DNA of 64,000 nucleotides. It comes from Rhodothalassiaceae bacterium. GTDB taxonomy: Bacteria > Pseudomonadota > Alphaproteobacteria > Sphingomonadales > Rhodothalassiaceae. Positions within the stretch are counted from its first letter, which is position 1. Every line of letters starts with the position of its first letter. This document shows, one piece after another, positions 4,414 to 51,640 of this stretch. The notes beneath the pieces were generated by a model. The model was not told the origin of the DNA and did not search any database. It saw only the letters and a list, made by a program, of their open reading frames with translations. Position numbers and translations under genes: made by a program. The stretch spans positions 1,589,491 through 1,653,490 of the forward strand of contig BPKC01000001.1 in the NCBI GenBank assembly GCA_026004935.1. Reading direction: 5' to 3'.

Positions 4414-7400
4414 TCACTCGGCCGGGTGCGCGCCATGCGCCTTTGCGGCCAGCTCGCGTTCCTGCCGGGCGAGCCGCGCGGCCTCGTAGCCGGGCGAGCG
4501 CGTGAACGGCGCGAGCAGGTCGTAGATCACGGGGATGACCAGCAGCGTCAGGAAGGTCGACAGGAACACGCCGCCGAAGATCACGAGCCCGATGGTCAGC
4601 CGGCTGGCGGAACCCGGCCCCGTGGCGAGGATGAGCGGCACCGCCCCCATCACGGTCGAGAACGAGGTCATGAGGATCGGCCTCAGCCGGATGCCGGCGG
4701 CCTCGATCATGGCCGGGCGCACATCCCGGCCCTGATCGCGCAGCTGGTTGGCGAACTCGACGAGCAGGATGCCGTTCTTGGCGGCCAGCCCGATCAGCAT
4801 GATGAGACCCACCTGGCTGTAGATGTTGAGCGTGGACCCGCCGAGATACAGCGCGAGCAGGCCGCCGGCCGCCGCCATCGGCACCGTGAGCATGATCACG
4901 AAGGGGTGGATGAAGCTTTCGAACTGGGCCGCGAGCACGAGATAGACGACGAGGAAGGCCATCGCGAAGGTGAAGGCGACGGCCCCGCCCGCCTCCTTGA
5001 ACTCGCGGCTTTCGCCCTTGTAGTCGATGCTCACCGCATCGGGTATGCGCTCGCGCACCACCTTCTCGAGCGCGGCGAGCGCCTCGCCCAGCGTCGCACC
5101 CGGCGCAAGCTGGGCGGAAAGGGTCAGCGCGCGCACGCGGTTGTAGCGGTTCAGCGTCGCCGGGCCCGCCTCCTCGACCATCTTCACGACGCTGGAAAGC
5201 GGCACGAGCGCCCCGGTGCGCGCGGAGCGGACGTAGATGTTGGCGAGATCCGAGGGCACCTGCCGGTCGGCGTCCTCGGCTCTCAGCAGCACGTCGTACT
5301 CCTCGCCGCGGTCGATGAAGGTGGTGACCCGGCGCCCGCCCAGCAGGGTCTCCAGCGTGCGGCCGATGACGGCCACCGAGACGCCGAGATCCGCCGCCCG
5401 GTCGCGGTCGACCCGCACGCGCAGCTGCGGCTGGGTCTCGCGGTAGTCGAAATCGGGCTCGACGATCTGCGGGATCCTGCGGACCTCCTCGGCGAGGATC
5501 GCCTTGAAGCGGGCGAGATCCTCATAGGTGTCGCCGCCGATCACGAACTCCACGGGGGATCCGCGCCCGCGCGCGATCGCCTGCGGCATCACGACGAAGG
5601 CGTCCAGCCCCGTGACGTCCGCATAGCGCCGGCGCAGCTCATCGATGATCTCCTCGGCCGAGCGCTTGCGCTGGTGCCAGGGCTCCAGCACGACGATGCC
5701 GAAGGCGGTGTTGTCGCCGTCGGTGCGGGTGATGACGACCCGCGCCTCATGCGTCTCGTTGACGAGATACATCGTGCGCTTTTCGATCTCCTGCACCCAT
5801 TTGCGCATGTAGTCGAAACCGGCGCCCTCGGGCCCGCGCAGGCTGATGAAGAAGGAGCCGCGGTCCTCGCGCGGGGTCAGCTCCTGCGGCAGCACCCTGA
5901 TGAGCCCCGCGATCAGCGCAAAGAGCGCGAGGAACAGGCCGAAGACGAGCAGCCGGCGGTCCATGAGATCGACGAGGACGGCCTCGTAGCCGCGCTTGAG
6001 CCGCGCGAACTGCCGGTCGAGCCAGCGGTTGAAGCGGGGCTTGGGCCCCTCGCGCACCAGCATGCGCGCGCACATGACGGGGGTCAGCGTCAGCGCGACC
6101 AGCGAGGAGAAGCCGACCGCGGCCGCCATCGCGATCCCGAGCTCGGCGAACAGCCGGCCGACATTGCCCTGAAGGAAGGCGATGGGCACGAAGACCGCGA
6201 TCAGCACGAGCGTGGTCGCGATCACGGCGAAGCCCACCTGGCGCGTGCCGTGGAAGGCGGCGTGCAGCCGCGGCTCGCCTTCCTCCACGCGCCGGTAGAT
6301 GTTTTCCAGCACGACGATCGCGTCATCGACGACGAGCCCGATGGCCAGCACCAGTGCCAGCAGGGTGAGCAGATTGATGGACAGCCCGAAGGCCGCCATC
6401 ACGGTGAAGGCGGCGATGATCGAGACCGGCACGGTCACCGCCGGCACCAGGACGGTGCGCACGGAGCCGAGGAAGAGGTAGAGCACCAGCACCACCAGCC
6501 CCATGGCGATGAACAGCGTCTTGTAGACCTCGGCGATGGCCGCCGAGATGAAGATGGTGGAATCGAAGCTCTCCTCGAGCGTCACGCCCTCGGGCAGCGT
6601 CTCGCGGATGCGCTCCACGGCCTGGTGCACGGCTCTCGCCACCGCCAGGTCGTTGGCGTTGGATTGCCGGACGATGCCGATGCCCACCCTGGGCACGCCG
6701 TTGCCGCGAAAGGCCGTCTTGTCGTTGAAGGGGCCGATCTCCACCCGCGCGATCTCGCCGAGGCGCACCAGATGGCCGTCGGCGCCGCGGGCGATGACGA
6801 GCTGGGCGAAGTCCTCGGGGCGGTTGTAGCCGCGCTCGATGCGCACGATGAGATTCCGGGCGCGGGACTCGAGACTGCCGCCGGGCAGCTCGACGTTCTC
6901 GCTTCTCAGTGCCGCCTCCACGTCCGCCACCGTCAGAGCGCGCGCGGCCATCGCCTGGCGGTCGAGATAAATGCGCATGGCATAGCGCTGCTGGCCGCCG
7001 ATCTGGACACGGGCGACCCCCTCGACCACGCTCAGCCGGTCGACGATGTTGCGCTCCGCGAAATCGGTGAGCGCCGGCACGTCCATGGCCGGCGAGGACA
7101 GCGAGAACCACATGATCGGCCGCGTGTCGCTGTCCACCTTCGCGATCTCGGGCGGATCGGCCTCCTCGGGCAGCCGGTCGAGCACGCGGCTCACCCGGTC
7201 GCGCACGTCGTTGGCGGCGGCGTCGATGTCCCGGCTCAGGGTGAATTCGATGACGACATTGGACGAGCCGTCCTCGCTCGTCGACGAGATCGACTTGATG
7301 CCCTGGATGCCAGCCACCTGGTCCTCGATGACCTGGGTGATGCGGGTTTCGACCACGGCCGCCGACGCACCCGGATAGTCCGTGCGCACGGAGACGATGG

Positions 7401-41161: not shown

Positions 41162-41731
41162 CTAGGATACCCCGCAGGCCCGGGAGATGGCGTTGTAGGC
41201 GGCGGTGAAGCCCCTGAGCGAGTAGCGGTCCGTGGTAGTCGTCCCGCGCTCGGAGACGCCGACGACCGTCATCTCGAGGCCGCGCTTCATGGCGGCGACC
41301 AGCCGCCGGTCGTCCTTCTCCGAATAGGTCCAGGCGCCATCGCCCTCGGTGAAAAGCTTCACCCGCGTCCCGCCATCGACGGTGACCGTGACCTCCGAGC
41401 CCTTCTTCAAGGGATGGCCCATCACGAAGTTCACCTGGTCGCGGATCTTCGCCCGCGGGCGATGGGTGACGGTGACGTAGATCTTCCCGCGCCGGGCGTC
41501 CCTGCGGCTGGCGGACCAGGATTTCGGCACCGAGACCATGTAGCAGATCTTCTGGCCGTTGCGTTCATCAAGCGTGAAGGCGTCCCAGTCATGGTAGCCG
41601 CCGAGAAACTGCGGCTTCGTATCCTGGGCCGGGGCCGGGCCGGACGGCGCGGCCAGCAGCACGGCCGCCAGCAGCCCCGCCCGCAGCGCCGGACGCCGCC
41701 GGCCGATCCTTTCCGTCGCGGTCTGCGCCAT
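41162..41731 (-). CDS. Invasion-associated locus B (IalB) family protein
   Basis: This 189-residue secreted protein has a signal peptide ending near APAQD. The IalB fold is recognised from the order WDAFTLDERNGQKICYMVSVP, VTHRPRAKIRDQVNFVMGHP, and a C-terminal SLRGFTAAYNAISRACG. Two cysteines (in KICY and RACG) could form a disulfide. IalB proteins help Bartonella invade red cells, but most alphaproteobacterial homologues have no proven role. The start MAQTATERIGRR is chosen because the signal follows; an upstream in-frame ATG at 41773 is less likely. It ends the normal neighbourhood before the duplicated methyltransferase tail and island. Confidence 0.85.
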   Translation of the reverse strand: MAQTATERIGRRRPALRAGLLAAVLLAAPSGPAPAQDTKPQFLGGYHDWDAFTLDERNGQKICYMVSVPKSWSASRRDARRGKIYVTVTHRPRAKIRDQVNFVMGHPLKKGSEVTVTVDGGTRVKLFTEGDGAWTYSEKDDRRLVAAMKRGLEMTVVGVSERGTTTTDRYSLRGFTAAYNAISRACGVS

Positions 41732-41769
41732 CGCCTTGCGTCCGCCTTCCGATTCCGCCTGCCGGATCC

Positions 41770-42007
41770 TCACCCGCCCCCCGCAAGATGCCGGCGGAAG
41801 CGGACGTCGCCGTGGACGTGCGGTGGCAGCTTCTCGCTCGGTCCGCCGGCGCGCACGGGGCGCGGGGCGAAGCGACCGTAGGAGATCAGCCGGTCATACA
41901 TCAAGATCGCGCCGGCGGTGGCCACGTTCAGCGAAAAGCGCGTCGGGATCTTCACCACGAAATCGCAGCGCGCCAGCGTCTCGGCCGACAGCCCCAGCCG
42001 CTCGCCG
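41770..42007 (-). pseudogene. Displaced 3' end of the RNA methyltransferase gene (copy A)
   Basis: This segment encodes the last 78 or so residues of the TrmH/SpoU-family protein found intact at 46305-46868, including [20 protein letters not shown] and [16 protein letters not shown]. It has no 5' part and no start signal. It lies next to ialB, as the original gene end would be if an element had inserted. Four mismatches to the other copy cluster near 41821-41833. It is probably not expressed as a protein. Confidence 0.85.
41773..42007. repeat. 235-bp direct repeat, left copy
   Basis: The stretch matches 46314-46548 in the same orientation, offset by 4541 bases, with about four mismatches. 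Identity starts at CCCGCCCCCCGCAAG and ends at CTCGCCG; flanking bases differ on both sides. It contains the 3' end of the SpoU-type gene. It behaves like the left attachment-site-derived or recombination repeat of the island. Confidence 0.9.
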
Positions 42008-42133
42008 TTCGCTCATCCTGGGCCAAAGACCTGGTCCAAAGGCCGGTTCCGCCAAAAGCGGGCGCGAGGCCAGCCAGATTTAACAGGGAAATCCCGTAAA
42101 ACATGCGCAACGCATACGAATTGCACGTTTTTG

Positions 42134-42162
42134 TTGACAAAGCTTGTGCACGCAGGTATCCT
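42134..42162 (+). promoter_or_regulatory. Sigma70-type promoter of the island
   Basis: A perfect -35 box TTGACA (42134-42139) and a -10 box TATCCT (42157-42162) are separated by exactly 17 bases. It is the best promoter match noticed in the window. The start of transcription would be near 42169, giving a leader of about 170 bases before the peptide gene. Confidence 0.75.
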
Positions 42163-42231
42163 GCCAATGCATTTGGGGAGCGGGGGAACATCACATCGCT
42201 AGTCCGCCGGCACGTGGCGAGTCGCGCCTTT

Positions 42232-42246
42232 GCGCAACGGTTGCGC
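42232..42246. promoter_or_regulatory. 15-bp inverted repeat in the peptide gene leader
   Basis: GCGCAAC and GTTGCGC form perfect 7-base arms around one base. It lies about 65 bases downstream of the inferred transcription start. It could be an operator or a small RNA hairpin; neither can be proven here. Confidence 0.4.
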
Positions 42247-42340
42247 GGTCGACGCCGCATTCGGCGAAAAGCCTGGCGACTTGCAGGGAGTGGCTCACTT
42301 GGCGTCCGGTCGCAGGCACTGCATGAAAGGGAGCATCATG

Positions 42341-42658
42341 ATGGAAAAGGGCAAAACGAAACTTCTCATGTCAGCGACGGCAGCGGTGGTGAGCGGCGTG
42401 TTGTCGGCCCCTGCCTTCTATCAAGGGGCGGTAACTGCGCTGCAGTTTGATGAGCACGGCCGTGTGGAGGCTGTTGCTGAGCGTGTAACGAGCGAGTCTC
42501 AAGTGCAGGATGAAACCGTGCCGGGAACCTCGTCGGCTGTTGATTTCTTAAACTTGGATAAAGAAAATCGGCAGAGGTTCAAAGAGTTCTGGTTGGCAAA
42601 CAACGGAACCTGCAAAGGAAATGGTCAATGTTGCTGTAGCAACCCGAAGTTAGCCTAG
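42341..42658 (+). CDS. Putative radical-SAM RiPP precursor peptide, Cys-tailed
   Basis: This 105-residue peptide has no family that I recognise. The start ATG is 7 bases after AAAGGGAG; ATGs at 42338 and 42323 are alternatives. Residues 2-25 resemble a signal or membrane-directed leader (EKGKTK, then LLMSATAAVVSGVLSAPA). Residues 40-75 are acidic and Ser/Thr-rich. The C-terminus is a basic/aromatic helix-like stretch (ENRQRFKEFWLANNG) and a tail TCKGNGQCCCSNPKLA with Cys91, 97, 98 and 99. The size, hydrophilic leader, compact Cys-rich C-terminus and position before a radical SAM enzyme and an export-type permease fit a RiPP precursor (leader plus core). The exact core and modification are unknown. 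Confidence 0.7.
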   Translation: MEKGKTKLLMSATAAVVSGVLSAPAFYQGAVTALQFDEHGRVEAVAERVTSESQVQDETVPGTSSAVDFLNLDKENRQRFKEFWLANNGTCKGNGQCCCSNPKLA

Positions 42659-42677
42659 GACATGCGCAAATGAAGGC

Positions 42678-42698
42678 GGAAGGGGGCAATCCCCTTCC
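42678..42698 (+). terminator. Hairpin between peptide gene and radical SAM gene
   Basis: GGAAGGGG (42678-42685) pairs perfectly with CCCCTTCC (42691-42698) around a 5-base loop. The tail CCTTCTTCG is pyrimidine-rich rather than a run of T. It lies 20 bases after the peptide stop. It probably acts as a partial terminator or mRNA stabiliser that makes peptide mRNA exceed maturase mRNA, a usual arrangement in RiPP operons. Confidence 0.55.
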
Positions 42699-42740
42699 CC
42701 TTCTTCGATATCATCATCAACAAGAAGGATGGGCTCTTAA

Positions 42741-43796
42741 ATGTTTAACGATCGATTTATAGATCAAAGAAAGGAAGAAATATTATATTACTTGTTATCG
42801 CCGAGGTTTCTTGATCTTATTATCCTACCAACTGAAAAATGCAATTTTAGATGCAGGTATTGCTATGAGTCGTTTTCTATAGGGAAAATGGGTCAAGAAG
42901 TAGTTGATGGAATTATGAATCTTATCAAGGCCAGAGCACCGTCTTTAGATTTACTAACCATTCATTTTTTTGGTGGGGAACCTTTGTTGGCACATAGCCA
43001 CATCGTCCGAATTTGCCGGGCATCGATGGCTGCTATGGAAACGGGGAAATTTTTCTATTATGCGATGGCAACTACGAATGGGTATTTATTAACACAAGAA
43101 CGCGCGAATCTGTATTATTCGATTGGTCTAAAGAGATATCAAATTACGTTTGATGGAACCAAGAACGTGCACGATTTGTGGCGGGCGAAATATGGGGGTG
43201 GAGGTACCTTTGACACAATATGGTCTAATCTTAAAGGACTTAGATCGCTACCGCATGATTTAGAGGTGCTCGTGCGCTTGCATTTGATGCCAGGAAGGGA
43301 GGATGATGCGGAGAGATTTGTTGTAATGTTTGGTCAGGAATTCGGTGGAGACAAGAGGTTTAAGATTTTCTTCAAGGAGGTGGCTCATTTGGGTAGCAAC
43401 AATGATAAAGAAATAGAAGTGTTTAATCCTGCATCAAATGAGTATAACAGTCTTGTGTCATATCTAGCATCGTTGCTTCCGGTAGAAAACTTGGACAATC
43501 AAGAAAGCGATGCATCTATAATAGTGAATAATATTTGCTATGCATCTAGGGCAAATTCGTTTGTAATTCGTGCCAATGGTGATATCGGGAAATGCACAGT
43601 CGCCTTGGATAGCGATCGGAATCGCGTTGGCAGGATTCTTCCGGACGGTCGCATCATCCTCGATCCGGAAGCCGTGGGGCAATGGCTGGTCGGCTTGGAT
43701 ACTCTGCGCCCCGATGATTTGCGCTGCCCCTTGCATGCCGTGAGCAGCACGCCTACGCCGAAAGTCGGGCTCGCCGGGCGAGCGATGGAAGAGTGA
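42741..43796 (+). CDS. Radical SAM protein with partial SPASM/twitch domain, putative peptide maturase
   Basis: This 351-residue enzyme has a radical SAM cluster motif in CNFRCRYC (Cys34, 38, 41; CX3CX2C), the GGEPLL motif and an AdoMet TIM-barrel pattern. The C-terminal CX13GX4C element (Cys266 to Cys285) is the opening of a SPASM/twitch auxiliary-cluster domain. After it only one more Cys is found (Cys329 in LRCPLHAV), and the expected following cysteines are missing. The C-terminus may thus be truncated or diverged. The first 855 bases are AT-rich, and the rest switches to local GC-rich composition near 43595. Position after the Cys-tailed peptide suggests it modifies that peptide, perhaps with thioether or other cross-links. 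The chemistry is not predictable. Confidence 0.85.
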   Translation: MFNDRFIDQRKEEILYYLLSPRFLDLIILPTEKCNFRCRYCYESFSIGKMGQEVVDGIMNLIKARAPSLDLLTIHFFGGEPLLAHSHIVRICRASMAAMETGKFFYYAMATTNGYLLTQERANLYYSIGLKRYQITFDGTKNVHDLWRAKYGGGGTFDTIWSNLKGLRSLPHDLEVLVRLHLMPGREDDAERFVVMFGQEFGGDKRFKIFFKEVAHLGSNNDKEIEVFNPASNEYNSLVSYLASLLPVENLDNQESDASIIVNNICYASRANSFVIRANGDIGKCTVALDSDRNRVGRILPDGRIILDPEAVGQWLVGLDTLRPDDLRCPLHAVSSTPTPKVGLAGRAMEE

Positions 43797-43818
43797 GCAT
43801 TGGGCTGGGAGGGGTGCC

Positions 43819-46209
43819 GTGACGCGAGGGATGGCAACAGTCGGGCTCGCAATCGCTGGCGTTTTCGTTTTTCTTGCGGCATTTTTCGCATACTGGAATG
43901 CGAGCTACAACCGGTGGATGCCGCACCACGACCGGATCTTCCGGATCCATGGTACCCTTCTGCTTCCGGGCATGGAACCGCAGAGCTTTCCGTACGCGCC
44001 CGGGCCGTTGAAGGATGCGCTTGAAGCGCAGCTGGAAGGGCGGCGCCTTAAGGGGGTCGTGCGGATCTTCGCACAGGAGGTGCAGCTGCGTACGCCTGAG
44101 CGCACGCTGGATGCGCGCGTCCACTACGCCGATGAGAGCTTCTTTACCGTTTTCGACTGGCCTCTCGCTGCCGGTGATGCGGAGCGGTTCGCCTCCAATC
44201 CTTCAGCGGTATTCGTCACGGAACGCATGGCGCACAAGCTCTTCGGCGGGGCCCCGGCGATCGGTCGACGGATCACCGTAACCGATGGGAGCCGCAGGCG
44301 CGAGCTGGTCGTGGCGGGAGTCATGCGAGACTGGCCCGAGAACACGACTGAAGATCTGCGCATCGACCTTCTTGCACGTATCCGCGAATCCGATTTTCAA
44401 AACGAGCCGTGGGTGTTCCGATACTGGCTCGGCCTCAACGACACCGTCTTCATCAGGCTCCGCCAACCGGAGCCGGCCGCCGCTCTCGACGCCACGCTTG
44501 AGAGAGTGCTTGCTCGCCATCTGCCGGAGCGTTTTTCCGGCCGGCTCGCCCTCAGAGCCACGCCTCTCGGTCGAATTCATTTCTGGGGCCTGACCGCCAA
44601 ATCACGGGCGGAGAATGCGCGCCGTCTTGCACTCGTCACCGGTCTTGCAGCCCTGGTGTTCATCGTCGCCATGGCCAATTTCAGCCTGATCCACGCCGAG
44701 CGTGCGCTTGAGCGCGAGCGAGCCTTTGCGGTCCGGCTTCTGTTGGGGGCCGGGCGCGTCCGGATCGCCTCGGCTGTCGTGGCGACGATCGCGACGGATG
44801 CCGCCTGCGCGATGGCGCTCGCCGCGCTTCTCGTGAAGGCGAGCGGTGCCGTGGTCCCCGAGCTGGCGCAACTGCTGCCGGTCGACCGGGAAGTGCTCCT
44901 GCGGGCCGTGCTGACTGCATTGCTGGCCGCGGTCACGGCGGTCGTTGCGGCAACCTCCGTCTCCGTTGCGCGCATTGCGCGACTGCCGCTTGCCAAGACA
45001 CTGCGGGGGGTGCGCGGCCCGACCGGACTGGCACGCAGACCTCTTCGGACGGTGCTGGCCGCAAGCCAGTTCTTCGCCGCGGTCGCGACGGTCGCGCTCG
45101 CTCTTGTGGCAGCGCGACAGCTGGGCTTTGCCGGTACCGTGGATCGCGGCTTCAGTGCGGATGGGGTATTCATCATCGACCACCTTGACTGGCCGGCGGC
45201 CATGAGCCGGGCCGAACTTCTGCGTCGGCGGGTGGCGGAGCTCCCCGGTGTTGCAAGCGCCACCCTTTCGGGCACCGCGCCCCCGGATGTGGGCGGCGAC
45301 CTGGTAACCGTGCGGCTGGATGACCGTGACGTGCGGGAGGTCAATGTACGTCAGGCGACCATAGATCCGCATTATCTTGAGACATATGACATCAGGCTGA
45401 TTGCCGGGCGGAACCTTGATGAGAACCGGCCCGGCGATCGGGAGCCCGACGCCCACGAGACGATCCGCGATTTTTCCATCCTCATCAATCGGACTGCCGC
45501 GCGTCTGTTGGGCTTCTCGCAGCCGGAGTCGGCGGTGGGACGGATCTTCGTGATCCGGCCGGGAACGGACAGGGAGGCCCGCGTGCATGTCGCGGGGGTC
45601 GTGGACGACGTCCTGCTGGAAGGCGTCTACCGGCCGATCGAACCCACCATCTATTCCTGGCAGCGCAGCAGCATCGGCGTGTTGAGCGTGCGATACACCG
45701 GCCCCGATCGGACATCGTTCAGGACGGCCGTGGAGGCGATATGGCGGGAGCTCGTGCCGGAGGTGCCCTTCCGGATGGAGAGTGTGGCGCAACGGATCGT
45801 CGCTCTTGACGCCGAATCGCAACTGCGTGGCCGGGCGCTCGCCTTTTTTGCAGGGGTGACGCTGTTTCTGGCCGCGATGGGAATCTTCGCGCTGGCCTAT
45901 CATCAGCTGGAGGAAGAGCGCGTCATATTCGCTCTTCACAGGCTGCTCGGCGCGTCGGCCATGGCGCTGGCGGGCCTGTTCGCGAGTCGCTTGGGGCGAC
46001 CGTTTCTTGCCGCGGCACTGCTCGCTCTTCCGCTGGCCTGGGTGCTGGCGGAGCGCTGGCTGGAGGGGTTCGCCTATCGCATTGCGCTCACCCCGCTGCC
46101 GTTCATCGAGGCGCTGGGGCTGGTGCTGGCGGTGGCCGCGATCACCGTCTCGGGGCACATGATCCGGCTGCTCACCACCCGGCCGGTGATGGTCCTGCGC
46201 GCGGGCTGA
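43819..46209 (+). CDS. FtsX-like/MacB-type ABC transporter permease, no partner ATPase
   Basis: This 796-residue protein has TM1 near residues 6-28, a periplasmic MacB-like core domain containing NASYNRWMPHHDRIFRIHG, then three helices (about 275-390), and a fourth at about 410-430. A second periplasmic domain and three C-terminal helices follow (about 665-780). The layout is two FtsX modules in tandem, as in peptide/lipoprotein export permeases. The GTG start follows GGAGGGG, 23 bases after the radical SAM stop, so it is likely co-transcribed. No ATPase or adaptor gene lies in the island; the MacB-type ATPase 11 kb upstream could serve it. It is GC-rich, unlike the preceding gene. Export of the modified peptide is inferred from context. 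Confidence 0.8.
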   Translation: MTRGMATVGLAIAGVFVFLAAFFAYWNASYNRWMPHHDRIFRIHGTLLLPGMEPQSFPYAPGPLKDALEAQLEGRRLKGVVRIFAQEVQLRTPERTLDARVHYADESFFTVFDWPLAAGDAERFASNPSAVFVTERMAHKLFGGAPAIGRRITVTDGSRRRELVVAGVMRDWPENTTEDLRIDLLARIRESDFQNEPWVFRYWLGLNDTVFIRLRQPEPAAALDATLERVLARHLPERFSGRLALRATPLGRIHFWGLTAKSRAENARRLALVTGLAALVFIVAMANFSLIHAERALERERAFAVRLLLGAGRVRIASAVVATIATDAACAMALAALLVKASGAVVPELAQLLPVDREVLLRAVLTALLAAVTAVVAATSVSVARIARLPLAKTLRGVRGPTGLARRPLRTVLAASQFFAAVATVALALVAARQLGFAGTVDRGFSADGVFIIDHLDWPAAMSRAELLRRRVAELPGVASATLSGTAPPDVGGDLVTVRLDDRDVREVNVRQATIDPHYLETYDIRLIAGRNLDENRPGDREPDAHETIRDFSILINRTAARLLGFSQPESAVGRIFVIRPGTDREARVHVAGVVDDVLLEGVYRPIEPTIYSWQRSSIGVLSVRYTGPDRTSFRTAVEAIWRELVPEVPFRMESVAQRIVALDAESQLRGRALAFFAGVTLFLAAMGIFALAYHQLEEERVIFALHRLLGASAMALAGLFASRLGRPFLAAALLALPLAWVLAERWLEGFAYRIALTPLPFIEALGLVLAVAAITVSGHMIRLLTTRPVMVLRAG

Positions 46210-46304
46210 GCGGACGGGGGCGGATTCCGGAAGACGTGCGGCCGGGACCGGAAGGCCGGGTGCCGTGCGAGCTCCGGGCGTGCCGCGGCTTCCCCCGCCT
46301 CGGA

Positions 46305-46868
46305 TCAGCCGTTCCCGCCCCCCGCAAGATGCCGGCGGAAGCGGACGTCGCCGTGGACGTGCTCCGGCAGCTCCTCGCTCGGTCCGCCGGCGCGCACGGG
46401 GCGCGGGGCGAAGCGACCGTAGGAGATCAGCCGGTCATACATCAAGATCGCGCCGGCGGTGGCCACGTTCAGCGAAAAGCGCGTCGGGATCTTCACCACG
46501 AAATCGCAGCGCGCCAGCGTCTCGGCCGACAGCCCCAGCCGCTCGCCGCCCAGGATGTAGGCCGCGCGCACGGGATGGCGGAAGCTCGGCAGATCGATGG
46601 CGTCATCGGTGATCTCGACGCCGACCAGCCGGCAGCCCTTCGGCAGCACGAGCTCGTCGATGGACCCGTATTCGTAGTAGGGCAGGGAGTCGGCCGAACG
46701 CGCGGTGTCCGAGAAGGCCTTCGCGATCTCCGGGCCGGGGTCCGTCCTGTAGTTCGGGCGGATGGCGAAGACGAAGGCCGCCCCGAAGCCGTGGGCGGTG
46801 CGGATCAGGTTGCCGACGTTGCCGGGTTTGGAGACCCGCTCGATTCCGATCGCGAAATACCCGCGCAT
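46305..46868 (-). CDS. TrmH/SpoU-family RNA methyltransferase
   Basis: This intact 187-residue SPOUT methyltransferase transfers methyl from AdoMet to a ribose 2'-OH of tRNA or rRNA. Family motifs are visible: [16 protein letters not shown] (motif 1), [19 protein letters not shown] (motif 2) and [20 protein letters not shown] (motif 3). A C-terminal tail follows ([20 protein letters not shown]). Small size and motif spacing suggest TrmL/TrmH-like enzymes, but the target is unknown. Its last 235 bases are duplicated next to ialB, and the last two codons (Asn-Gly) differ from that copy. It is the probable integration target of the island. Confidence 0.87.
46314..46548. repeat. 235-bp direct repeat, right copy
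   Basis: This is the right copy of the repeat, inside the intact methyltransferase gene (3' end). It is about 98 percent identical to the left copy. If the island entered by integration, this copy was supplied by the element and restores the gene. Confidence 0.9.
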
Positions 46869-50590: not shown

Positions 50591-50901
50591 CAACCGAGAT
50601 CGACGAGGTCATCCACCAGCCGCTGCGGCTGAAGGTCATGGCGGCGCTCGCGGCGCTGCCGGAGGGCGAGATGATCCCCTTCGTGCGGCTGAAGAACTTG
50701 ACCGGTGCGACCGACGGCAATCTCTCGCACCAGCTCAAGGTGCTCGCGGATGCCGGCCATGTCGCGATCGTGAAGGACTTTCACCGCAACCGGCCGCGCA
50801 CCCGCGTCCGCCTCACCTCCCGGGGGCGCCGAGCGTTCGCCGATTACGTGGACAACCTCAAGGCGCTTCTGGAGGGCGCCGACGGCGCGAACGGGAGCTG
50901 A
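50587..50901 (+). CDS. Winged helix-turn-helix transcriptional regulator
   Basis: The 104-residue protein has a wHTH fold of the HTH_34/ArsR-MarR-like type. Segments are EVIHQPLRLKVMAALAALP, then LKNLTGATDGNLSHQLKVL (recognition helix), then the wing around TRVRLTSRGRRAF. It probably represses its own two-gene operon through the inverted repeat at 49881-49903. The effector is unknown. It is the last gene before REP block 2. Confidence 0.85.
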   Translation: MTTEIDEVIHQPLRLKVMAALAALPEGEMIPFVRLKNLTGATDGNLSHQLKVLADAGHVAIVKDFHRNRPRTRVRLTSRGRRAFADYVDNLKALLEGADGANGS

Positions 50902-50969
50902 AGGATCACCCCCGCCCGGGCCGGGCCGGAGGAGGACGGGGGGACCGAGGCGCCGGCCCGGCCGGCGGG

Positions 50970-51640
50970 TAACGGGAAGGGGAACGCGGGCGAACGACGA
51001 GGATGGAGGGGCGGCGGGTGACGAAGAAAGAACATCGACGGGTGACGCCCTCGTTTTTCGTCATTCGCCGCGAAAGCGGCGAATCCGGCAGGCGGGGACG
51101 ACGATCTCGGTGCTTGCGGCTGTCCCCGCTTCCCGCTGGATCCGCCGATCAAGTCGGCGGATGACGAGGTGAGGGTCTGGACCCGCCGGTCAAGCCGGCG
51201 GGTGACGTTCCCGCCTTCGCGTCGTTCGCCGGCTTGACCGGCGAACCCATGAAACGGTGACGGCAGTCCCGGCGCCGGTGCTTGGGTCCCCTTTCGGCTG
51301 GACCCGCCGGTCAAGCCGGCGGGTGACGAACGAATGGAGAAGGACCCGCCGATCAGGCCGGCTGTTGACGCGGAAGAAGGAGCTCCCGGCGGGTGACCCT
51401 CTCCCAACACGCGTCGTTCGCCGGCTTGACCGGCGAACCCATGAAACGGTGACGGCAGTCCCGGCGCCGGTGCTTGGGTCCCCTTTCGGCTGGACCCGCC
51501 GGTCAAGCCGGCGGGTGACGAAAGAAGGGGGAAGGACCCGCCGGTCGAGCCGGCGGCTGGCGCGGGAGAAAGAGGGCCGGCGGGTGACGCGGGAAGGACG
51601 GGGGGCGGCAGTCGAGCCGGCGGGTGGCGCGCGCCATTCC
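50970..51640. repeat. REP/BIME-like hairpin cluster 2
   Basis: The same type A, B and C hairpins as in cluster 1 fill the gap between the wHTH and recG genes. A composite unit, type B followed by about 60 bases and type A, is repeated near 51221 and 51412, a period of about 191 bases. No gene is supported here; all open frames consist of repeat-derived words. Confidence 0.85.

Follow-up and report, generated by a model that had tools for sequence, protein, structure and literature searches.

A Cys-tailed peptide, a compact radical SAM maturase and a MacB-type permease form a candidate RiPP cassette with an Asn-Cys signature in a Rhodothalassiaceae genome

A 64,000-nucleotide stretch from the genome of a Rhodothalassiaceae bacterium (contig BPKC01000001.1, positions 1,589,491 to 1,653,490; named the window) contains an island of 4.3 kb with three plus-strand open reading frames (ORFs), which encode a Cys-tailed peptide, a radical SAM enzyme and an FtsX/MacB permease without ATPase. 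A sequence-only reading had proposed these genes as a cassette for a ribosomally synthesized and post-translationally modified peptide (RiPP), and the three ORFs lie where it had placed them.

42341..42658, plus strand: RiPP precursor of 105 aa with a signal-like N-terminus and the leader motif FDEHGR (from the ORF and leader comparison)
42741..43796, plus strand: compact radical SAM maturase of 351 aa with a CxxxCxYC motif and the C-terminal Cys 266, 285 and 329
43819..46209, plus strand: ADOP/MacB-type duplicated permease of 796 aa without ATPase, with MacB_PCD and FtsX over the Pfam cut-offs

The peptide may equally start at an ATG at 42338. Its core, NGTCKGNGQCCCSN, contains two NxxC sites, NGTC and NGQC (N88/C91 and N94/C97), and Asn stands three or four residues before three of the four Cys. 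These four Cys are clustered; SCIFF precursors have six Cys in forty-five residues.

The pairing of such a peptide with such an enzyme was followed through 88 loci, namely the window, seven plasmid loci and 80 loci from a collection of 84,980 species. The latter are the best 80 of 352 stretches that match two short patterns and encode a relative of the maturase; their hosts belong to Cyanobacteria, Proteobacteria, Actinobacteria, Acidobacteria, Planctomycetes, Bacteroidetes, Bacillota, archaea and others. Beside the enzyme, many of the 88 loci contain small Cys-tailed ORFs that share the leader pattern hydrophobic-x-hydrophobic-D-x-x-G-(R/K/E). A leader hidden Markov model (HMM) of 28 columns built from 22 seeds found a match (E of 1 or better) near the maturase, that is within 1.5 kb, in 50 of the 88 loci, and outside the seed loci in 29 of 66 (21 of them at E 0.01). 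Near ORFs gave 56 matches in 6,732 and far ORFs 2 in 12,474; of the near matches, 52 lie on the maturase strand and all 56 contain Cys. The sequence-only reading had made its case depend on related enzymes having a similar Cys-tailed peptide beside them, which the shared leader in these 50 loci provides, and its view of the peptide as substrate of the enzyme is strengthened by the recurrence of the pair. The island reading needs correction in that the peptide and maturase also occur together outside it. Because the pair recurs in relatives, we consider it very likely that peptide and enzyme form a RiPP pair. In the plasmid records the two genes are mostly annotated as 'radical SAM protein' and 'hypothetical protein', and none of ten precursors compared with the NCBIfam models reached a cut-off.

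A radical SAM match at E 1e-20 was found in 4 of 246 genomes of the host order, the window's own included, and two of the four are longer enzymes of 449 and 503 residues. When 385 genomes of the host class were drawn, the window alone matched at E 1e-40, and in the family of genome G626 there were matches in 3 of 397 genomes, G626 itself included. Compact maturases were also seen in four archaeal loci (L067, L070, L074 and L080), with a Cys-tailed small ORF beside the enzyme in L067, L070 and L080. The Deinococcota relatives L009, L011, L087 and L088 have the same leader type near by on the opposite strand; genes for a lantibiotic dehydratase and an LLM-oxidoreductase are annotated beside L009, and the Deinococcota loci may be RiPP loci with two chemistries. 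Nine contigs of a viral collection (L112-L120) carry maturase relatives. L113, L114, its copy L115, and L116 hold candidate precursors in which Asn stands at -3/-4 of every Cys, and no clear candidate was seen in L117 and L118. A viral origin of the window island, considered alongside these nine relatives, was set aside, as no phage gene is found among the island ORFs. A genome of the host family holds another RiPP-like locus (L104, G013:C5:84000-98000), with a 502-aa radical SAM enzyme and small Cys-ended ORFs; inspection by eye and tblastn suggest that it also encodes two MacB-type permeases, an ATPase and a membrane-fusion protein.

Of 62 precursor ORFs, the four with the most hydrophobic N-termini belong to the window, L007 (Acetobacter), L081 (a Sphingomonas) and L051 (a Sphingomonadales genome), as ranked by a hydropathy score, which is not a signal-peptide prediction. 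Compared with the L007 leader, the window leader scores 43, and 0 of 1,000 shuffles score as high; the margin over the other 271 ORFs of the region is small (45 versus 40). In a leader HMM built without it, the window peptide is a weak match, though still the best at its own locus.

The spacing of Asn and Cys in the cores suggests which bond the maturase may form. Among 61 distinct cores, Asn occupies position -3 of Cys in 43% of cases versus 15% after shuffling (z 10.8) and position -4 in 28% versus 14% (z 5.1). With similar cores removed, Asn stands at -3 of 64 of 152 Cys (shuffled mean 22.2) and at -4 of 42 of 151 (shuffled mean 20.9), and 0 of 2,000 shuffles are as high for either position. 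The non-seed loci alone give 39 of 94 at -3 (mean 13.6, 0 of 2,000 shuffles as high) and 24 of 94 at -4 (mean 13.0, 2 of 2,000). As a background, 383 of 14,709 Cys (2.6%) have Asn at -3 in the remaining short ORFs of these loci, which are mostly non-coding frames. At least one NxxC or NxxxC occurs in 53 of 57 peptides. A closer count covered fifteen cores chosen by eye, of which L113, L114 and L116 were fetched later and stand outside the enrichment counts: Asn precedes every Cys by three or four residues in L028, L040, L060, L113, L114 and L116, and it does so for 10 of 11 Cys in L057, 6 of 7 in L054, 4 of 5 in L065, 4 of 6 in L090 and 2 of 5 in L047. An Asn excess at +3 was dropped, since it appears in the seed loci (17 of 52, with 2 of 2,000 shuffles as high) and is not seen in the non-seed loci (8 of 85, below the mean). 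In the acidobacterial locus L015, the last part of a 374-aa ORF upstream of the maturase (4835-5956) contains 21 Cys, most of them within DxxC/ExxC repeats; at -3/-4 of these Cys, Asn is found for 3 of 21, and Asn, Asp or Glu for 19 of 21.

A precedent for such a bond comes from streptococci, where an NxxC radical SAM RiPP was reportedly described by Caruso et al. in 2019. In the accounts of that system consulted, NxxcA/NxxcB, an Asn20-Cys23 beta-thioether is described (PMC8326336, PMC13361665), which sets a precedent for the bond predicted here. The window pair resembles it in the Asn three residues before Cys (NGTC and NGQC) and in the use of a radical SAM peptide maturase. By its description rather than by sequence comparison, NxxcB is set apart: it is listed as a SPASM enzyme in the part of PMC9012708 concerned and is streptococcal and Rgg-linked, whereas the window family has a three-Cys SPASM remnant and other leaders, hosts and exporters. 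In ranthipeptides, according to the relevant parts of the sources, Cys is bonded to side-chain carbons (PMC8326336, PMC11002830), and the known acceptors are given as Asn, Asp and Thr (PMC8326336). The sequence-only reading had not recognised the precursor as a ranthipeptide; ranthipeptide-like chemistry should nonetheless be kept in view, as the Asn enrichment of the cores makes an Asn-Cys thioether the best-supported prediction. By analogy with NxxcB, we regard the formation of Asn-Cys thioethers by the maturase as fairly likely.

The enzyme that would form these bonds is compact. In the AlphaFold2 model (mean pLDDT, the predicted local distance difference test score, 92), about 23 residues with one short helix precede the core. 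The nearest solved folds are CteB (Z 24.8 and 24.1), anSME (23.4-23.9) and ChlB (23.3), where rows within 1 Z count as tied, and SuiB is also among them. A profile search of solved structures likewise gave CteB as the best match (E 1.7e-26; the next, 2.8e-14), and position 24 of the maturase profile falls on residue 99 of CteB. In CteB, a leader-binding domain at the N-terminus is combined with a SPASM of two clusters; since the profile aligns only from residue 99 onward, the window maturase does not share a leader-binding domain of this type. Of 85 scored rows, 74, among them the window, carry exactly one Cys behind the KC motif; two are found in 6 rows, five in 4 and none in 1. Five Cys correspond to a full SPASM domain, as kept in the Deinococcota loci L011, L087 and L088. 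C329 lies in a Cys-Pro that is invariant in 56 aligned rows, from which the full-SPASM rows were excluded. The maturase is an enzyme without an N-terminal leader-binding domain, and its SPASM is cut to three conserved Cys, which may hold one auxiliary cluster.

Among the NCBIfam matches listed (25 of 71), no model reached its cut-off for the maturase. The best-scoring named family is TIGR04463, a radical SAM/SPASM RiPP maturase (126.3 bits versus a cut-off of 525), whose entry names no paper; it is a 438-position model for a SPASM enzyme, and the maturase matches positions 82-363 only. The family of PapB, the freyrasin synthase, gave a sub-cut-off match (97 bits versus 340). TIGR04463, PapB, Clo7bot, DynA and SCIFF were each rejected as the maturase's family, all being far below cut-off, and membership in the lasso, lanthipeptide or darobactin classes was rejected because no domain in the island proteins supports it. 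The ranthipeptide synthase CteB (SCIFF, thermocellin) is the nearest solved protein in both fold and sequence, with the difference that CteB and PapB use Asp or Thr as acceptors and Asn is predicted for the window family. In the radical SAM map of PMC9062424, clusters 59 and 115 likewise pair a radical SAM enzyme with a repeated-Cys peptide in small loci; they differ, as far as the map's text on them goes, in having Asp directly beside Cys and, in cluster 59, a recombinase gene. That source notes 22 unreported clusters in the portion concerned, and its sections 4 and 9 contain no cluster like the window family. A title- and abstract-level literature search gave no description of the leader or of the compact maturase family, and an earlier description is possible.

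The same comparisons bear on the possibility that the cassette makes another bond, such as a sactionine (C-alpha) thioether, a C-C or C-N cross-link or an epimerised residue, with the Asn signature marking a turn or a recognition site. The presence of anSME, ChlB (named as a cyclophane synthase in the part of PMC12636437 concerned) and SuiB among the nearest folds, with anSME within 1 Z of CteB, would be in keeping with it, and the enrichment of Gly at -1 (z 5.5) and +1 (z 5.2) of Cys fits a turn. The set distance (-3/-4) between Asn and Cys and the position of a thioether synthase, CteB, as closest solved relative by sequence argue the other way, and we judge another bond unlikely, if the strongest of the rivals to an Asn-Cys thioether.

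Export in the relatives appears to follow the type of leader. Judged by a sequence pattern, a C39-type ABC exporter is encoded in 23 of the 88 loci. By leader type, it is present in 12 of 21 loci scored as having a GG leader, 1 of 30 others and 0 of 4 signal-type loci. The association is soft, because the GG pattern is loose and some loci are cut by contig ends. These exporters, which recall bacteriocin clusters, tell against the idea that the peptide is a cross-linked periplasmic subunit or metal-binding protein, and the island encodes no partner subunit for one. The model for that idea is the gamma subunit of quinohemoprotein amine dehydrogenase, in which a maturase makes Cys-Asp/Glu thioethers before export; the signal-like N-terminus and the four clustered Cys would suit it, and TIGR03906, the model for the quinohemoprotein maturase, matches the window enzyme at E 1.1e-16, with 60.6 bits that stay far under the cut-off of 453. 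We consider a periplasmic subunit quite improbable and keep to the RiPP cassette.

In place of a C39 exporter, the window has its permease, which scores 160.1 bits with the ADOP model, under the cut-off of 622. Both segments that we take to be its coupling helices are kept, and its N-terminus is 17-27 residues shorter than in three aligned relatives. Homologous permeases are encoded at L007 and L051, so that the window makes three signal-type loci with a permease; in the L081 genome a homologue lies on another contig, and its link to the locus is uncertain. Triplets of peptide, maturase and permease, for which the sequence-only reading had proposed to look, are found at two related loci. The permease had been described as lone, in agreement with the absence of an ATPase gene among the island ORFs. 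It had also been proposed to export the peptide, and its recurrence as a partner at L007 and L051 speaks for this; export by this permease alone is unproven, because the window island is without an ATPase and the N-terminus is short. Two host ATPases share 48% and 45% identity with the partner ATPase of L051, and the second of them is encoded at about 32.2-32.9 kb of the window. Darobactin-type export by DarB likewise combines the MacB periplasmic core and FtsX domains, as in ADOP/MacB, with a radical SAM RiPP pair; the DarB model gives 65 bits versus a cut-off of 700, and the window island differs in that genes for an ATPase and a membrane-fusion protein are both absent. With the signal-like N-terminus of its precursor and its MacB-type permease, the window represents an alphaproteobacterial variant, for which the sequences make a Sec-plus-MacB route plausible.

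The shortened N-terminus, the missing ATPase gene and a mixed base composition of the island would also fit a decaying fragment, in which the permease has lost its N-terminus and ATPase and the remnant makes no product. None of the three frames is interrupted, the maturase retains its conserved Cys and the host encodes the two ATPases, and we hold decay to be very unlikely beside a working cassette.

The island edges and the remaining features are as follows.

41162..41773, minus strand: IalB-family gene at the left flank of the island (Pfam PF06776), adjoining SpoU in four sister genomes
41773..42007, no strand: left direct repeat, in which the 3' part of the SpoU methyltransferase gene stands as an orphan copy, 98% identical to 46314-46548
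42134..42162, plus strand: candidate sigma-70 promoter TTGACA-N17-TATCCT, from a consensus scan (1 found versus 0.7 expected)
42678..42698, no strand: 8-bp hairpin between the precursor and maturase genes, which the scan lists as terminator-like on the minus strand
46305..46868, minus strand: intact SpoU-family RNA methyltransferase gene at the right island edge (PF00588)
46314..46548, no strand: right direct repeat within the intact SpoU gene, 98% identical to the left copy

The 235-bp repeats and the AT-rich radical SAM gene (GC about 50% at 42-44 kb versus roughly 70% for the window) had both been pointed out in the sequence-only reading and were found as described. The single promoter claimed there is suggestive only: one sigma-70-like site does precede the peptide gene, and 0.7 such sites are expected by chance. 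The hairpin scan found 3 terminator-like sites in the region versus 1.5 expected, and the hairpin at 42678-42698 may tune the relative expression of precursor and maturase. A strong SpoU match is present in 4 of 6 other genomes of the host family, and at all four of these loci (L095-L098) the SpoU and IalB genes are adjacent and the site is uninterrupted. As SpoU and IalB are neighbours in the four sister loci, the island is an insertion, and this insertion left a duplicated SpoU gene end. A search of the host genome found the two island-flanking repeat copies and no third. Insertion driven by an integrase or transposase was rejected, because the island ORFs include no such gene; a circle may have entered by homologous (Campbell-type) integration. 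A link between the SpoU site and the trmJ gene beside the L103/L051 cluster was also set aside as coincidence, since no duplicated trmJ end is found there. G+C content at third codon positions is 0.38 in the radical SAM gene up to 43590 and 0.68 thereafter, with 0.76 in the permease gene, 0.90 in the flanking IalB gene and 0.92 in the SpoU gene; the rise near 43600 looks as if the last 60 codons of the maturase and the permease had a different history. Elsewhere in the window, the stretch AGLTGGSSRKGTQAPAPGLPSPFHGFAGQAGERR is present two times in the minus-strand translation of 50844-51506 and probably reflects a DNA repeat between genes. The 12.6-kb second contig of genome G000 (C2, L101) duplicates the chromosome stretch C1:450000-458000 (L100) with the same ORFs in opposite orientation, and is perhaps an assembly duplicate of it.

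Several observations count against the cassette and its Asn-Cys bonds. No near leader match exists in 38 of the 88 loci; about fifteen of these have a candidate precursor by eye (e.g. L028, L041, L047, L057, L065, L070, L075 and L090), and in the remaining ones inspection by eye found none. The window peptide itself is a weak match (E 7.2 in 19,206 ORFs) to a leader HMM built without it, and falls to E 39 when three alphaproteobacterial seeds are dropped as well. It resembles the L051 leader modestly, as 26 of 1,000 shuffles reach the same score and the full score is tied with another ORF, and there is no signal with L081 (518 of 1,000 shuffles as good). Neither NxxC nor NxxxC occurs in 4 of 57 cores; the L051 core lacks NxxC and has just an NxxxC, and L081 has NxxC for 1 of 3 Cys. 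The tree position of the window enzyme is unsettled, as it differs between trees: in the first, where three rows (L015, L018 and L059) were in the wrong frame, the window is grouped with L007, L051, L081 and others in a set of eight rows (80/79), and in the second, a quick tree, it pairs with L015 (87). The signal-type loci did not come out as a single clade in the second tree, with 3 changes needed and 24 of 500 shuffles as low. Finally, an ATPase gene lies close by at L007 and L051 and the window island is without one, and no ATPase, protease or known immunity gene is found among its ORFs.

With these points weighed, the cassette as a whole, that is RiPP biosynthesis with Asn-Cys thioethers and a MacB-type permease, appears on balance probable. 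The compact radical SAM enzyme would recognise the precursor leader, which carries the motif FDEHGR, and, in the cytoplasm, would join the Cys thiols to the Asn three residues upstream (N88-C91 and N94-C97). The bond would most likely be at the Asn beta carbon and give small thioether rings, each formed at a loss of 2 Da. By means of its hydrophobic, signal-like N-terminus, the modified peptide would then pass into the envelope, presumably by the Sec route, where the MacB-type permease, probably powered by an ATPase encoded elsewhere, may expel the peptide or protect against it. The cassette would have entered beside the SpoU gene, leaving the duplicated gene end behind. Peptides of this kind usually serve in antagonism or signalling, and this product probably does so too.

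Beyond the window, we tentatively propose, at somewhat less than even chance, a RiPP class that extends across bacteria and archaea. It would be defined by a DxxG(R/K/E) leader, a minimal maturase without a RiPP recognition element (RRE) and with a single auxiliary cluster, and Asn (or Asp/Glu) at -3/-4 of each Cys as the thioether acceptor; in its alphaproteobacterial branch, Sec exit followed by a MacB-type pump would replace the C39 bacteriocin exporter. If this holds, a one-cluster thioether enzyme would demonstrate that little of the SPASM machinery is required and that the leader-binding domain is dispensable; the role of the second auxiliary cluster is named as unclear in the part of PMC9012708 concerned. 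The Asn-x(2,3)-Cys rule is a prediction that can be tested by experiment, and under this rule the repetitive precursors, such as that of L057 with eleven Cys, would be polycyclic.

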